Source: Anaerolineales bacterium (GTDB taxonomy: Bacteria > Chloroflexota > Anaerolineae > Anaerolineales > Villigracilaceae). Taken from it: a DNA stretch of 64,000 bases. Below are positions 58,862 through 64,000 of the stretch, piece after piece. Position 1 is the stretch's first letter. Every line of letters begins with the position of its first letter. The stretch lies in contig JACZJC010000064.1 in NCBI GenBank assembly GCA_014860745.1, positions 1-64,000 on the forward strand. Reading direction: 5' to 3'. The position numbers and the translations under genes are program-made. The notes under the pieces were generated by a model that worked only from the letters and a program-made list of their open reading frames with translations, had not been told where the DNA came from and ran no database searches.

Positions 58862-59995
58862 TTATACTTTTCCTCCTTTTGGATTACGCCTGCTCCACCA
58901 TATGGCAAGGATTACGGCGACCCCAACGGTCAGCACGCCCGGAATACGAAGGGTCAGCCAAGAATGATACTCCAAAAAGAACCAGCCCCAGAGCGGGCCA
59001 AGCGGGACGAATGCAAAGAATATCCATCCATCGGAGAGCCATAATCGTCGATAGGCGTACCACAGGTTGTCTGGAACGATATGCGCCCCAAGGGCGCTCA
59101 TGAAAAGGGGCAAGCCTGTAAGCAGGAATTGAAACCACACCGCAAACCCGAACTGTAAATAATGCGCGATCAAGTGGATGGCGAACACCGCGAAATAACC
59201 CACATGGAATCCGATATATGCTCCCTGGTGAACATAAAGACGGATTGCCGGTTTGTTGGATATTTTTTTCTTTTTCCAGAATAACTGATCCTTTGTATTA
59301 ACCATTGCGCCGATTATTAATGGGAGAATGACGCTTCCGCTTGCAAAGAAGACCATTGACTGTACGGCGCTATTTTTTGTGGGAAAAGGCCATTGCAGGG
59401 ACGGGAAAATCAGCCAGTAGGTTATCAGCCAAATCCAGAGCCAGATCAACATTTTCAATACGTGAAAAATCGTCCACCGGCTTGTTGCCCTGTTTATAAG
59501 GATAACAACAATACGAGGCCATGCGGGGGGTGGACCTTCGTTTGCTTCACTCAATATTTTTTGATATTCATCGGGGGAGTTGAAGAAAACATTATTCAGC
59601 ACAAACTCAAAGTTTAATGGTTGTCTTTTTAAGGGAAGTGTTTCCGTTTCAGGGAGGACTTCTTGAATTCCTTTTGGAAAAACCTCGTTCAATTCGCTCT
59701 CGTTAAGGGCGCGATAGTTTCCAACTTCAAGCAGAAGGTTTGCCTCCGCGGGAGATTTGATCCCCCCATGCCGCTTTAGGATTTTTATCAAACTGGCTAA
59801 TACCAGGCGGTCGCTGACTGCAATTTTGCTTTTATTTCGTTCCCAGTCGCTGATTGCCGCTCCGCTGTAGCGTATCCCCATTTCTTCATACAAAAGTTCA
59901 CCCAGCTTTTGCTGGGTAAGTCCTCGTCCTGTCTCTGGATCGCGACATTGCAGGCGGAAGACGCGAAGGTGTTTTCCGAAACTAGAAGCAGTCAT
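58862..59995 (-). CDS. XRE-type HTH fused to a multi-TM membrane domain
   Basis: 377 aa. The N-terminal XRE HTH (residues about 8-75: GLTQQKLGELLY...YSGAAISDWERNKSKI) is followed by a linker, then four or more TM helices in the C-terminal half (LIWLWIWLITYWLIFP...). A membrane-bound one-component regulator is likely. It lies directly after the ComP-like kinase gene on the same strand (127 bases between), so it could be part of that signalling locus, but the link is not proven. The ligand is unknown. Confidence 0.78.
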   Translation of the reverse strand: MTASSFGKHLRVFRLQCRDPETGRGLTQQKLGELLYEEMGIRYSGAAISDWERNKSKIAVSDRLVLASLIKILKRHGGIKSPAEANLLLEVGNYRALNESELNEVFPKGIQEVLPETETLPLKRQPLNFEFVLNNVFFNSPDEYQKILSEANEGPPPAWPRIVVILINRATSRWTIFHVLKMLIWLWIWLITYWLIFPSLQWPFPTKNSAVQSMVFFASGSVILPLIIGAMVNTKDQLFWKKKKISNKPAIRLYVHQGAYIGFHVGYFAVFAIHLIAHYLQFGFAVWFQFLLTGLPLFMSALGAHIVPDNLWYAYRRLWLSDGWIFFAFVPLGPLWGWFFLEYHSWLTLRIPGVLTVGVAVILAIWWSRRNPKGGKV

Positions 59996-60121: not shown

Positions 60122-62437
60122 TCAAATTATAAAGTCGTTGGGCTTCAATATGATTTGTACGCCCGTTCCCTTTTGAACTTCCGAATGGATGGAGGCTTCG
60201 GCCCCGATTAACTGGGCGCGTTTCAAGATGCCTGCCAGGCCAAAATGTTTTTGCTTGACGAGGGTATCGATTCCCAGTCCGGAGCGTGTGTCGAAGCCAA
60301 TCCCGTCGTCGGTGACAGACAGCGAAATCTCCCCGGCAAACAGCCTGCCTGTGATACGGATGATTTTTGCCTGCGCATGTCGCGCGGCATTTTCACAGGC
60401 TTCCTGAACAATGCGGAAAATGTGTTCTTCCACGTTATTGACCTGATATCTCGAATCATCGGTTTCGATTTCCACGATGATTTTAATTTTCTTGTTGCTG
60501 CGTTCCATCAAAGAGGTCCCCAGTTCTTCAATGGCGGGTTTTAGCCCGTAATCCAGCATGGGCGGGCGCAAGTCGACGATGATCTCGCGAATCTGGCCCT
60601 TTAGTTTTTCATAGGCTTGTTGAAAGGCGGGTGTGGTTTCTGCTTCGCTTAAATTCATGCGCAACACGGCCAGTTCGTTGAGAATGCTGTCGTGAAGGAT
60701 AAGCGCCAGGCGCATGCGTTCATCTTCATATCGGCTGATACCGTCCTGATAGATGGACTTGAGCTGCTCCGTCTGCAGGACATAACTCAGCGCGATCGCG
60801 GTCTGGTTTGCCAGCGTTTGCAGAATCGATATTTCTGCCTGCGAATACAAATCGTCGGGGTCGCGGCGTCCAAACAACCAAAGGCCGATGAAAGCGTCGC
60901 CAATTTTGAGCGGGAGGATGAGGCGCACCCACGCGTGGGGTCTTGCAGGGGAATTAAGATAGTCCGGGATATAGTTTCCCATGGAGGCGGTCAGGTCGGA
61001 AAGCCTGTATTCCTCGCGGATTTCATCGTCCTTGAGACCTACGGTGAGAAGGGCTTGTTGAGCGCTGTTTTCCACCTTCAGAAAAACGAACTGGCGGACG
61101 AGCAAGTTTGGAAGAATTTCTTCCTTAAGCAGCAGCAGCAGGTGTGAAATTGTGTTGCTTGTAACGATGCGGGTTGAATATTGGTCGGGCAGTTGCGTTT
61201 TCGGGATTGGGAGCCCGAGGATGCGATTTTCGACGAAGGTTTGAAAAATGGGGAAGCCCCAAAAGGCCATGATCACAGCGAAGAGGGAGGACCCCAGGCT
61301 CGCAAGGATAATCGCCTCATTGGACGACGAATTCATGGTTGTAATGACGATCACAGTGGCCAGCAGTGTCAATAAGAGACTGAGGAAGATGTATATGGAA
61401 ATAATGCGGTTTATCCGTATTTCCAACCCGCCCAATTGACGGCGATATACGGTATAGAAATATGCAAATGGCAGGAGCGGAAGGCTTAGTAGGGCGCCTC
61501 CAGCAAGAGCCGGCAGCCCGCTTATCGAACCGATGATCCCGATGATAATGGCGGGAACCAGCGCGAGAACTGCCGCGATGCCCAGGATCCGCAGCTCGCG
61601 CCTTGCCTCTCTTTGAAAAATCCCGTGAATAAAAAGGAGCGCCAGGCTTGCGAAGAATGCCAAAGCGAGGACGGTTAGGAAGGTATTGTCATCCGGCAGG
61701 AGTTGAAAACACTCCGCTATCGCCACCAGGGAAACGACGGCATACACACCCTGCACGAGCCGGGGGGGAAGTTTTGAAAGCGGTTTTGGGAAAACCCAGT
61801 GCAGGTGTAGGTATACCGGCAGGCAGAACCATACGGCGATTCGCAGGAATACGTTGCTTCCCCAAATATGATAATGGGAAAGGCCGCTTCCAAGAATCAG
61901 CCATAATGCGGTCAGGTAATTGAAGGCAATCATCAATTGCCAGCGTTCATCCATCGGGCGCAGGTTGAACAGGGCCAGGGTTCCCGCGCCCCAAAAGGCA
62001 ATGGCAATCCAGCTTTCATTGAACAACAGATCGAGTATTTCGTTCGGATTTGGACCGGGAGTTTTCCAGGGCACGGTAAGTTCCTGCCCGTTCCGTTCCA
62101 TGATAACGGGGATGATCTCCCCTTTTTCGGGCATGTAAATTTTTGACCAATAGCGAGATTCAAAATCAACCAGGTTCATTGGGCCGATTTGAATGATGCG
62201 GTCTTTGACTTGCAATCCATCCTGCCCGGTATAGATCGCGGTAATTTCCTGCGTGCCGGCATCCCAGCGAAAACCGTAATAGGGATGCTCAAAAAACTTG
62301 GCATATGTGTACAGCAGCAAAATGGAAAACACCGCCCAGGGCAGGATATGAATGAGCGCTTGGTTATTAAGGGGTTTCTGACCAGGTGTGTTTGGGTGGG
62401 AGTTTTGCATATCGTATAAACCTGAGTCTATTTGCAT
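60122..62437 (-). CDS. ComP-like sensor histidine kinase (TM, PDZ-like loop, GAF, HisKA_3)
   Basis: 771 aa from ATG 62437; ATG 62410 is an alternative and neither has a Shine-Dalgarno. One TM helix, then an extracytoplasmic PDZ-like loop (GLQVKDRIIQIGPMNLVDF...PEKGEIIPVIMERNGQELTV), then about seven TM helices, a GAF domain, and a HisKA_3 dimerisation helix with His582 in LILHDSILNEL. The HATPase follows (ENAARHA, VTDDGIGFD, HFGLAGILKRA). This order is that of Bacillus ComP. Minus -10 TATAAT at 62461-62456. Its partner regulator is probably the LuxR-type gene at 63689. Confidence 0.85.
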   Translation of the reverse strand: MQIDSGLYDMQNSHPNTPGQKPLNNQALIHILPWAVFSILLLYTYAKFFEHPYYGFRWDAGTQEITAIYTGQDGLQVKDRIIQIGPMNLVDFESRYWSKIYMPEKGEIIPVIMERNGQELTVPWKTPGPNPNEILDLLFNESWIAIAFWGAGTLALFNLRPMDERWQLMIAFNYLTALWLILGSGLSHYHIWGSNVFLRIAVWFCLPVYLHLHWVFPKPLSKLPPRLVQGVYAVVSLVAIAECFQLLPDDNTFLTVLALAFFASLALLFIHGIFQREARRELRILGIAAVLALVPAIIIGIIGSISGLPALAGGALLSLPLLPFAYFYTVYRRQLGGLEIRINRIISIYIFLSLLLTLLATVIVITTMNSSSNEAIILASLGSSLFAVIMAFWGFPIFQTFVENRILGLPIPKTQLPDQYSTRIVTSNTISHLLLLLKEEILPNLLVRQFVFLKVENSAQQALLTVGLKDDEIREEYRLSDLTASMGNYIPDYLNSPARPHAWVRLILPLKIGDAFIGLWLFGRRDPDDLYSQAEISILQTLANQTAIALSYVLQTEQLKSIYQDGISRYEDERMRLALILHDSILNELAVLRMNLSEAETTPAFQQAYEKLKGQIREIIVDLRPPMLDYGLKPAIEELGTSLMERSNKKIKIIVEIETDDSRYQVNNVEEHIFRIVQEACENAARHAQAKIIRITGRLFAGEISLSVTDDGIGFDTRSGLGIDTLVKQKHFGLAGILKRAQLIGAEASIHSEVQKGTGVQIILKPNDFII

Positions 62438-62477
62438 AAAGGAAAGGAGGTGACGATTATAAGGCTTATATTTGCAT
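62429..62477. promoter_or_regulatory. Divergent regulatory region with direct repeats and a dyad
   Basis: TATTTGCAT occurs at 62429-62437 and again at 62469-62477 (exactly 40 bases apart). Between them is a dyad TATAAG-G-CTTATA (62458-62470) and AAGGAGGTGA. The left copies overlap the kinase start codons, so some of this may be chance. Candidate operator for the LuxR-type regulator. Confidence 0.35.
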
Positions 62478-62527
62478 TTCACAAGAACGATCGTTTTCAA
62501 TTCAATAGCCAAAAAAGGAGACCCATC

Positions 62528-62698
62528 ATGTTGACAATGGAAGGTTTTTATAAAAGGATTTCGCGCCAGACGGCTGGCGGGAATCGATACCTGAAAATGC
62601 TTTTCGCGGTGACACGCGCCAGCCGCGCCCAGCTGGATATCTTGAAAAGCGATCTGGCCTGGCAGGAATGGACCACGGTTGAAAAGGCCGGGGAGTAG
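62528..62698 (+). CDS. ComX-like peptide pheromone precursor candidate
   Basis: 56 aa from ATG 62528, with AAAAGGAG 7 bases upstream, which rules out the longer frame from 62432. A basic N-terminus (MEGFYKRISRQTAGG) is followed by a C-terminal part with two tryptophans (Trp45, Trp48; AWQEWTTVEKAGE). Size and the C-terminal Trp recall ComX, where a Trp near the end is isoprenylated by ComQ. In ComX, Trp usually lies 3-4 residues from the end, here 8. The next gene is an isoprenyl synthase. No sequence homology to known ComX is claimed. Confidence 0.6.
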   Translation: MLTMEGFYKRISRQTAGGNRYLKMLFAVTRASRAQLDILKSDLAWQEWTTVEKAGE

Positions 62699-62700
62699 AA

Positions 62701-62736
62701 AGCGGGGGCCGGTTGTTTCAACAGCCGGCCCCCGCT
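62701..62736 (+). promoter_or_regulatory. Strong intercistronic hairpin abutting the synthase RBS
   Basis: AGCGGGGGCCGG (62701-62712) and CCGGCCCCCGCT (62725-62736), a perfect 12-bp GC stem. It begins 2 bases after the peptide stop and ends right at GGAGG (62737-62741) of the next gene. No T-run follows, so it is more likely an expression-balancing or mRNA-stabilising element than a full terminator. Confidence 0.65.
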
Positions 62737-62751
62737 GGAGGATGATTTATC

Positions 62752-63729
62752 ATGGATATTTATCAATCAACGCTGGATTATCTGATGCAATTTCCCGTTT
62801 TTGACATGTGGCCTGGAATGAAATCCGTTTTGGAGCGGGTCGCGTGCGGCCGGCCGCATGCCTGGCGGCTCCCGATGATTCTTTGCGAAGCTGTGAGCGG
62901 GTCCCGTGAGGCTGCTATCCCGGCTTGCGCGGCTTTGGCTTGCGCGCAAATTTCAATCATATTGGTGGACGATATGCTGGATGAAGATTCGCGCGGCGAA
63001 TATCGCAGCATTGGGTTTGGCAGGGCCTCCAACTTTGCGATTGCATTTCATTCGTCGGCGTTGGACGCGCTTTGTTTTTGTGAAGCAGGCGCAAGGGTCC
63101 GGTTTGAGGCGGTGGAGAGTCTTAATCGCATGTTGCGGGAGACGGCCTTTGGCCAGGAACTGGATGTTCAAAATCCATCCGATGAGGATGCCTATTGGCG
63201 CGTTGTAAAAAACAAGAGCGCGCCGTTTTATGGGTCGGGTTTTTTCCTTGGCGCCTTGCTGGGGAAAGCGCGAAAAGCGACAGCCGCCCGACTTGATACG
63301 CTTGGGCGGCTTTATGGAGAGATGATCCAGATTCACGATGACTTGAATGATTGCATGGCCGTGCCTGCGAACCCGGACTGGTTGTTGGGGCGCAAGCCCC
63401 TGCCCATCCTTTTTGCCCAGACGGTGAATCATCCAGAGCGTTCAAAGTTTATTGATTTATGCGGGGATGCCGGCAGCCAGGAATCGTTGACTCGCGCGCA
63501 GGAAATCCTGATTCGCTGCGGCGCGGTAAGTTACAGTATCGATTGTCTGGCGGGGAGATACCGGGATGCGCGGGCAATTTTGAAAGATACGGCGCTCTTA
63601 TATGAAAACGATGTTGAGGCATTGCTGGAGGAACTTATAATGCCGGTTCGAAATCTGTTCGAAGTTTTGGGAGACGGGCTGCCCGGGTTTAATTTGTTTG
63701 TTTCGGAGTCTCAGGCGGAAACGGGGTGA
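62752..63729 (+). CDS. Isoprenyl synthase, ComQ-like (polyprenyl synthetase family)
   Basis: 325 aa. The two Asp-rich motifs of polyprenyl synthetases are present: LVDDMLDED (DDxxD) near residue 72 and IQIHDDLND (second motif) near residue 200. The rest is all-helical. GGAGG is at 62737-62741. In Firmicutes a homologue (ComQ) transfers a geranyl or farnesyl group to Trp of ComX; the neighbour here is a 56-aa Trp-containing peptide gene. Other roles in polyprenyl diphosphate synthesis cannot be excluded. The 3' end overlaps the converging regulator gene by 41 bases. Confidence 0.82.
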   Translation: MDIYQSTLDYLMQFPVFDMWPGMKSVLERVACGRPHAWRLPMILCEAVSGSREAAIPACAALACAQISIILVDDMLDEDSRGEYRSIGFGRASNFAIAFHSSALDALCFCEAGARVRFEAVESLNRMLRETAFGQELDVQNPSDEDAYWRVVKNKSAPFYGSGFFLGALLGKARKATAARLDTLGRLYGEMIQIHDDLNDCMAVPANPDWLLGRKPLPILFAQTVNHPERSKFIDLCGDAGSQESLTRAQEILIRCGAVSYSIDCLAGRYRDARAILKDTALLYENDVEALLEELIMPVRNLFEVLGDGLPGFNLFVSESQAETG

Positions 63730-64000
63730 TCAACCCCATGTGCCGCGCCTTGGCGATGGCGGCGGCGCGGTTTTCCACTTCCAGTTTGAAATACGCATTC
63801 GAAAGCAGGTTCCGCACGGTGGAATGACTGATGTTCATTTTCTTGGCCAGCTGATAGGTGGAAGTGCCCGGGTAGGCGGCGCACAGCGAGAGCGCTTCCA
63901 ATTGGCGGGGGGAGAGGCTGCTTTTTTCGACGGATAGGAATTTGGCGTAGGACTCATGCGCGGCCTGGCTGAACTGGATGCCGCCGCCGGCAACGGCTTT
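63689..64000 (-). CDS. LuxR/NarL-type response regulator, ComA-like (partial, runs off right edge)
   Basis: 104 residues visible; the N-terminal receiver domain would lie beyond the window. The frame is open from the edge. A receiver-to-HTH linker (KAVAGGGIQFSQAA) leads into a LuxR-type HTH: LSPRQLEALSLCAAYPGTSTYQLAKKMNISHSTVRNLLSNAYFKL, ending in HMGLITPFPPE. The receiver itself is not seen, so a response regulator is inferred from the linker. The partner would be the HisKA_3 kinase at 60122-62437. It converges with the isoprenyl synthase. Confidence 0.8.
   Translation of the reverse strand, partial: KAVAGGGIQFSQAAHESYAKFLSVEKSSLSPRQLEALSLCAAYPGTSTYQLAKKMNISHSTVRNLLSNAYFKLEVENRAAAIAKARHMGLITPFPPETPKQTN

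Follow-up and report, generated by a model that had tools for sequence, protein, structure and literature searches.

A candidate prenylated-tryptophan peptide signalling locus with a ComP-type sensor in an Anaerolineales genome and its relatives

The stretch of DNA analysed here, called the window in what follows, comprises 64,000 nucleotides of an Anaerolineales bacterium (Chloroflexota; assembly GCA_014860745.1, contig JACZJC010000064.1, positions 1 to 64,000 of the forward strand). It corresponds to contig C8 of a host genome of 4.32 Mb that is 98% complete. A convergent/divergent block closes the window: a sensor histidine kinase gene on the minus strand, a small peptide gene and an isoprenyl diphosphate synthase (IDS)-like gene on the plus strand, and a response regulator gene, again on the minus strand. 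A sequence-only reading had placed four genes here and likened them to the ComQXPA locus of Bacillus; the genes are indeed where it had put them. Judging from their sequences, we consider that these genes probably form a complete system for signalling between cells, consisting of a prenylated-tryptophan peptide and its receptor, with prenylation, export and sensing as predicted steps. The features are the following:

60122-62410, minus strand: sensor histidine kinase, ComP-like (transmembrane helix, extracytoplasmic PDZ-like loop, multi-transmembrane bundle, GAF-like, HisKA_3, HATPase_c)
62443-62461, minus strand: conserved intergenic element, TATAAT-N3-CACCTCCTTT, proposed -10 box of the kinase promoter
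62528-62698, plus strand: 56-amino-acid (aa) precursor peptide, conserved leader TMxxFYxxL...LxxLT, C-terminal WxxW (Trp45, Trp48)
62660-62671, plus strand: codons for WQEW, where prenylation is proposed; Trp48 lines up with the sole Trp of relatives L084 and L086
62752-63729, plus strand: IDS-like enzyme, proposed peptide tryptophan prenyltransferase (ComQ/PalQ-like in role)
62968-62982, plus strand: first Asp-rich motif (FARM), DDMLD
63337-63351, plus strand: second Asp-rich motif (SARM), DDLND, with Gln193 directly before it
63689-64000, minus strand: NarL/LuxR-type response regulator, C-terminal part; the gene extends past the window to contig position 64408
58862-59995, minus strand: frequent fifth gene directly after the kinase, with an N-terminal XRE-like helix-turn-helix (HTH; by eye) and multiple transmembrane segments, no Pfam match

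The enzyme has both Asp-rich motifs, as the sequence-only reading had said, and a Pfam scan recognised it as polyprenyl_synt. Its AlphaFold model (predicted local distance difference test score, pLDDT, 93.7) has the IDS fold, with 1wy0 as the nearest PDB entry. In ordinary trans-isoprenyl diphosphate synthases the GKxxR motif and the arginine pair (RR) after FARM bind isopentenyl diphosphate (IPP). The family of the window enzyme resembles those synthases (GGPPS, FPPS, IspB) in fold, in FARM and SARM, both DDxxD in 44 of 44 members, and in the Gln before SARM. Unlike them, it lacks GKxxR and RR in every one of the 44, as do four ComQ sequences from Bacillota plasmids, whereas each motif occurs in 29 of 30 canonical synthases; the single GKxxR miss is a mis-trimmed sequence that does contain GKRLR. 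For the canonical set 32 loci were tried (L002, L067 and L068 were dropped for want of a usable sequence); besides the best PF00348 scorers it includes L001 from the host genome itself and a single gene from a Xanthomonas plasmid, and sequences with a G[KG]..R match were trimmed around it (L064 was mis-trimmed). The Gln before SARM is invariant in the family. Since 29 of the 30 canonical enzymes have it too, it is permissive rather than diagnostic.

In a tree of 23 of the 44 synthases, the four ComQ, 16 canonical enzymes and one Acaryochloris sequence, the family formed a clade of its own (99/97), apart from the canonical synthases of the phylum (100/99) and from ComQ (100/99). A grouping with ordinary polyprenyl diphosphate synthases, raised earlier as grounds for doubt, did not appear. 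The three groups have long branches and cannot be rooted, and the software issued a warning that long branches met; the tree therefore says nothing on whether the family is nearer to ComQ or to the canonical enzymes. The Acaryochloris synthase (L041, 4833-5780) lies on a conjugative plasmid, is without GKxxR and is matched by the Chloroflexota profile as well as by that of ComQ; no Trp peptide was recognised near it. Another plasmid, recorded as Stenotrophomonas rhizophila (L039, CP065518.1, 66179-75982), carries comQ with a ComP- and ComA-like pair. Its comQ is about as similar to a reference ComQ (31%) as the one on a Lysinibacillus plasmid is (30%), and the record may be mis-assigned or contaminated.

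The peptide gene is preceded by a Shine-Dalgarno sequence, AAGGAG, and encodes 56 residues with Trp45 and Trp48, in agreement with the earlier reading. Its collected relatives are 42-69 aa long and share the leader TMxxFYxxL...LxxLT or, in a second clade, TIEEFNxLL...LRQLT. WxxW stands at the C-terminus of 40 of these 43 peptides; the last Trp lies between the 1st and the 20th position from the end, and eight peptides end in Trp as annotated. Because this list was picked partly via the Trp motif, which biases Trp counts taken from it upward, leader-only profiles with the Trp core removed were built in a leave-one-out manner. By these profiles the peptide came top of the 2-11 upstream open reading frames (ORFs) in all 45 loci having upstream DNA, with E<0.01 (Z=1000) in 41, and the last Trp of the ORFs thus picked lay within 20 residues of the C-terminus in 44. 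When training peptides sharing 50% or more of their leader residues with the tested one were removed as well, the figures were 45 first places, 37 with E<0.01 and 44 with a C-terminal Trp. Two of the 45 loci, L081 and L085, contributed no training peptide. The exception in Trp placement is L085, where a Trp at the core position is followed by a long extension; in L081, L084 and L086 the only Trp is the penultimate residue. Orthologous loci with the synthase and without the peptide, which would have told against the proposed system, were not encountered among the 45 testable ones. The ratio pN/pS was 0.22-0.62 (pS 0.46-0.88) in 13 pairs chosen as near relatives, and we therefore take the ORF to be a genuine protein gene rather than a chance one. 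Pfam matched no family in the window peptide, nor did any Pfam or NCBIfam leader family match in the 13 of 43 peptides scanned. NHLP or another known leader family was rejected on the same 13 peptides, no NHLP model being found up to E 10.

The kinase ORF is formally open to TTG 62512. Since most aligned relatives start at the residue matching ATG 62410, the gene more likely spans 60122-62410 and encodes about 762 aa. The phosphoacceptor, previously read as His582, is instead residue 607 counted from the TTG or about 573 from the ATG; the position is His in 24 of 25 aligned kinases, that of the window included. The domain order proposed before held, and HATPase_c scored above its Pfam cut-off; HisKA_3 and GAF remained below theirs. 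Profile alignment (hhalign) of the family sensor with that of ComP, the latter represented by three sequences, gave a probability of 99.3% over 370 columns, or 98.2% over 320 columns without -glob, against 0.4% for reversed and 0.8-2.3% for block-shuffled controls. The loop alone gave 77% and the transmembrane bundle alone 94%. The AlphaFold model of the sensor (pLDDT 81.9) shows a transmembrane helix, a beta-rich loop and a transmembrane bundle, in agreement with the layout of ComP, where a PDZ-like first loop lies between a transmembrane helix and a bundle, with about 10 transmembrane segments in all (PMC9620489). A PDB fold search with the sensor returned weak matches to G-protein-coupled receptor-like folds and to the PDZ domains of DegS/DegQ, none at E<=0.001, and the PDZ assignment of the loop therefore rests on the comparison with ComP. 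In a second gene arrangement, described below, the transmitters vary: HisKA plus receiver in L124, HisKA in L024, HisKA_3 in L027. As the sensor family is joined to different transmitters across loci, it is the sensor that is the module kept with peptide and synthase. On the 4-kb contig L026, kinases of the sensor family flank the peptide-synthase pair on both sides (P X Q P).

A scan of genome contigs with the synthase gave 31 loci, of which 29 are labelled Chloroflexi/Anaerolineae, in line with the phylum suspected from the DNA; the other two are an Acidobacteria locus (L029) and a weak Anaerotignum fragment (L035). Among 396 Anaerolineae genomes the synthase family (E<=1e-40) was found in 26, some of these loci being the same as in the contig scan. 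Of 301 genomes across the phylum five had it. Four of them belong to the same family as the window and had been counted before; the fifth, G011, is from another class, and its locus L099 resembles L026 by eye and was left out of counts. In the leave-one-out ranking L099 gave no hit because the start assumed for its synthase lay too far upstream. The synthase family is thus patchy and nearly confined to Anaerolineae in the sampled genomes. The sensor (E<=1e-40) also occurred in 26 of the 396 genomes, 23 of them shared with the synthase, and in 23 of 23 the two lay on the same contig within about 2 kb. Chance would give 1.7 shared genomes (hypergeometric P 6e-31, with genome relatedness ignored). 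At E<=1e-20 the sensor genomes rose to 32 and the shared count stayed at 23. Three genomes had the synthase without the sensor: G142, where the match lies at the very start of a contig, G480, whose locus is short and probably cut off by the end of its contig, and G209, taken up below.

The four-gene block, which the sequence-only reading had suggested looking for in other Anaerolineae, was surveyed in 46 loci. Of these, 45 had a recognised peptide, 43 a kinase and 24 a regulator, many of the loci being short or situated at contig ends. The peptide hidden Markov model (HMM) for this survey was built from the 43 Trp-selected peptides. The window's arrangement (<P X> Q> <A, with P, X, Q and A for kinase, peptide, synthase and regulator) was found in 21 loci, 12 of them with the fifth gene H, and X> Q> P> in 16. 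The remaining nine vary, several at contig ends, and none of the 46 has the Q-X-P-A order of Bacillus, a difference that had been noticed beforehand. Dropped from the collection were L023 (= L022), L073-L076 (peptides identical to those of L019, L014, L022 and L030) and L077 (the window) as duplicates, L031 (no upstream DNA), L095, L097 and L098 (synthase truncated or not found) and L033-L035 (short or weak). At L120, L121, L123 and L125, regulator and kinase of the sensor family form pairs with no synthase or peptide recognised alongside; genomes G028, G451 and G459 lie outside the 26 synthase genomes, and G447 has a synthase elsewhere. Such pairs are possible eavesdroppers or orphaned receivers.

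A prenylated tryptophan signal with its receptor is the simplest reading because an enzyme devoid of the IPP-site motifs, a short peptide with a near-constant C-terminal Trp, a ComP-type sensor and a NarL-type regulator are combined in one place. By analogy, the cluster would most likely work like ComQXPA or like PalXQP of Paenibacillus. ComQXPA occurs in Bacillus subtilis and other Firmicutes; the window has the same four kinds of component side by side, namely a synthase, a small peptide with Trp, a sensor kinase and a regulator of the NarL type. The likeness extends to the single parts: FARM is DDxxD and GKxxR/RR are absent as in ComQ (an observation made here on four ComQ, not a published definition), the sensor aligns along its length with ComP, and the regulator has receiver and GerE as ComA does. 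The window peptide, with 56 aa and its last Trp 9th from the end, also fits the description of B. subtilis ComX-type precursors (52-73 aa, Trp within 5-10 residues of the C-terminus; PMC4008528), although not all its relatives do. Unlike in ComQXPA, however, genes do not stand as Q-X-P-A on one strand, the leader is unrelated to that of ComX and the core is WxxW, SARM is DDxxD where ComQ has [N/G]D in place of the first Asp pair (such a pseudo-SARM occurs in none of the 44), some sensors are joined to HisKA transmitters, one with a receiver, and the hosts are Chloroflexota and one Acidobacteria metagenome-assembled genome. Filing the cluster as a member of ComQXPA was accordingly rejected on DDxxD, lack of ComX homology and gene order. 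The comQXPA-like mechanism proposed by the sequence-only reading, with peptide, Trp prenyltransferase, ComP-like kinase and LuxR-type regulator, is well supported by conservation; strict identity, in ComX homology, order, SARM and ComQ kinship, is not supported.

PalXQP is the nearest alternative template. In Paenibacillus alvei, C-terminal Trp prenylation by PalQ was shown in vitro (PMC10853753), and the Pal cluster likewise combines a histidine kinase, a precursor and an IDS-like Trp prenyltransferase, PalQ being likened here by description. Trp at or near the C-terminus, the SARM aspartates and a Gln just before SARM are further common traits; this Gln is proposed to hold the indole NH in PalQ (PMC10853753; review PMC13290415). 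PalX differs by its NHLP leader, PalQ by requiring a C-terminal Trp, and the Pal cluster by being described with three genes and no regulator in the passages of PMC10853753 on which we rely. Two other trans-IDS-like tryptophan prenyltransferases, the P domain of ChrPC and Ord1, are comparable by description in that an IDS-like fold was repurposed for Trp. ChrPC, however, has an extra cyclising C domain, Ord1 acts on free Trp, and no kinase is mentioned for either in the parts of PMC13290415 used.

The mechanism that we infer, from prenylation itself, the Trp modified and the length of the tail to processing, export, sensing and target genes, would run as follows. The leader of the 56-aa precursor would be bound by the IDS-like enzyme, whose two Asp-rich motifs would ionise an allylic diphosphate (geranyl diphosphate, GPP, farnesyl diphosphate, FPP, or similar) supplied by the ordinary synthases of the genome. 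The isoprenoid would then be passed on to a C-terminal Trp in the WxxW core, not to IPP. The precursor would be trimmed, losing its leader and, in the window, also the eight residues after Trp48, and exported. The extracytoplasmic PDZ-like loop of the kinase, together with the transmembrane bundle, would sense it, and the kinase would phosphorylate the NarL/LuxR-type regulator.

Several observations weigh against this proposal. Trp48 is the 9th residue from the C-terminus, so that C-terminal trimming must be assumed for the window peptide and, as the last Trp ranges from 1st to 20th from the end, for part of the family; a precedent for such trimming is the ComX of B. subtilis subsp. natto (PMC5331326). 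The peptide has no ComX homology (no PF05952 match, profile alignment probability 0.1%), as the sequence-only reading had already seen, and the peptides of L017, L025, L028 and L093 rank first without a significant leader-profile score. Regarding the enzyme, a change from Asn to Asp at the SARM position in question drastically lowers ComQ activity (Okada et al., PMC5331326). In PalQ, which acts on a C-terminal Trp, the SARM aspartates D200 and D204 are retained, but the D200A/D204A mutant is still active, so these aspartates are non-essential there (PMC10853753). Whereas the HMM and profile comparison suggested earlier bore out the ComP-type sensor, it did not show the synthase to be closer to ComQ than to ordinary synthases: profile values were 98.87 and 98.98, respectively, and HMM scores overlapped. 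The sensor occurs without synthase in 3 of 26 genomes (G028, G451, G459), or 9 of 32 at E<=1e-20, G209 has peptide and synthase with a different hybrid kinase nearby instead of this sensor, and L016 has no such kinase within its 12.9-kb locus. Finally, among the 11 window genes profiled, no exporter or protease gene common to the loci was seen.

Could the product be a prenylated lipopeptide whose main job is another one, for instance antimicrobial or surfactant? The chemistry would be the same, signalling would be secondary, and the kinase-regulator pair would autoregulate production of the lipopeptide or sense membrane damage. PalXQP is in fact described as a cluster for a ribosomally synthesised and post-translationally modified peptide (RiPP) and not called quorum sensing in the passages of PMC10853753 used, and a large ORF close to the genes of L030 resembles, by eye, a polyketide synthase. 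We nevertheless consider this explanation unlikely, given that the conserved partner is a ComP-type sensor module and that genomes with kinase and regulator only exist, as expected of listeners rather than of self-protection. Moreover, beyond the four core genes and the XRE-HTH-like transmembrane gene, none of the 11 window genes profiled occurs in more than seven loci, although this profiling did not specifically target genes for immunity or transport.

It would be more improbable still that the enzyme is an IDS-like terpene synthase making a small terpene signal from FPP or GPP, with the peptide as an accessory protein. Loss of the IPP site with both Asp-rich motifs kept also fits FPPS-derived terpene synthases. 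PalQ, too, initially carried a terpene synthase annotation (PMC10853753). There is, however, no evident reason for a terpene synthase to keep a C-terminal Trp/WxxW, the most constant feature of the peptide, and the sensor, with its PDZ-like loop, aligns with a peptide receptor. To an ordinary prenyl diphosphate synthase sitting by chance beside a two-component system we give next to no credence. The PF00348 match above cut-off and DDxxD in both motifs would be what one expects of such an enzyme, but the lost GKxxR and RR, the separate clade and the co-occurrence with the sensor led us to reject it; the same genome, besides, has two PF00348 genes scoring far higher (223 and 205 bits, as opposed to 55 for the window enzyme).

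Turning to the remaining elements of the locus, the regulator could be completed in the contig (L004, 8690-9409): it has 239 aa with a receiver (PF00072) and GerE, so that the receiver domain, sought past the right edge of the window at the suggestion of the earlier reading, is present. The XRE-HTH-like multi-transmembrane gene follows the kinase in 13 of 46 loci and is a possible fifth component or output. Of 43 loci, 12 have the intergenic element in a strict form and one in a loose form, and its pattern occurs once in the host genome. Read towards the peptide it is AAAGGAGGTG..ATTATA; read towards the kinase, a -10-like box is followed by CACCTCCTTT, which we take to resemble the 16S anti-Shine-Dalgarno and to lie at the start of the kinase transcript. 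A leader ORF within the element was considered, since the motif looks like a Shine-Dalgarno when read along the plus strand, and was discarded because several loci have an early stop, only a few codons into the frame (by eye).

The sequence-only reading had taken the known systems to come from Firmicutes, so that this one would extend their logic to another phylum. A census of 2014 indeed found no comQXPA-like locus outside Firmicutes (PMC4008528), but a KEGG-based survey had already noted a ComP-ComA-type kinase-regulator pair, and no more than that pair, in Chloroflexi (PMC8895600), and an IDS-like Trp prenyltransferase beside a histidine kinase was known in a second form, PalXQP (PMC10853753). 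In the open PMC literature, which was our scope to the exclusion of subscription papers and bioRxiv, we found no such peptide-synthase system described for Chloroflexota in titles, abstract openings or, for PMC8895600, passages of text.

Taken together, the data allow a wider reading, on which our opinion is evenly divided: Chloroflexota may own a large, patchy family of prenylated-tryptophan pheromones (WxxW) in which the leader has no relation to ComX, the enzyme keeps its second Asp motif intact and the genes come in two arrangements, the sensing module being swapped between transmitter types and some genomes keeping only receiver and regulator to listen in. If the system works as proposed, the enzyme family, analysed here in 44 sequences, would add Trp prenyltransferases with new leaders and WxxW cores, and there would be a named candidate signal, receptor and enzyme for a phylum represented in the 31-locus scan solely by metagenome-assembled genomes. 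Bacillus-like cell-to-cell signalling would then exist in a different phylum, and, on the wider reading, the logic of ComQXPA would be either older than Firmicutes or have arisen more than once. With a sensor that looks homologous to ComP and a leader unlike ComX, whether prenyl-Trp signalling is ancient or was repeatedly invented becomes a testable question.

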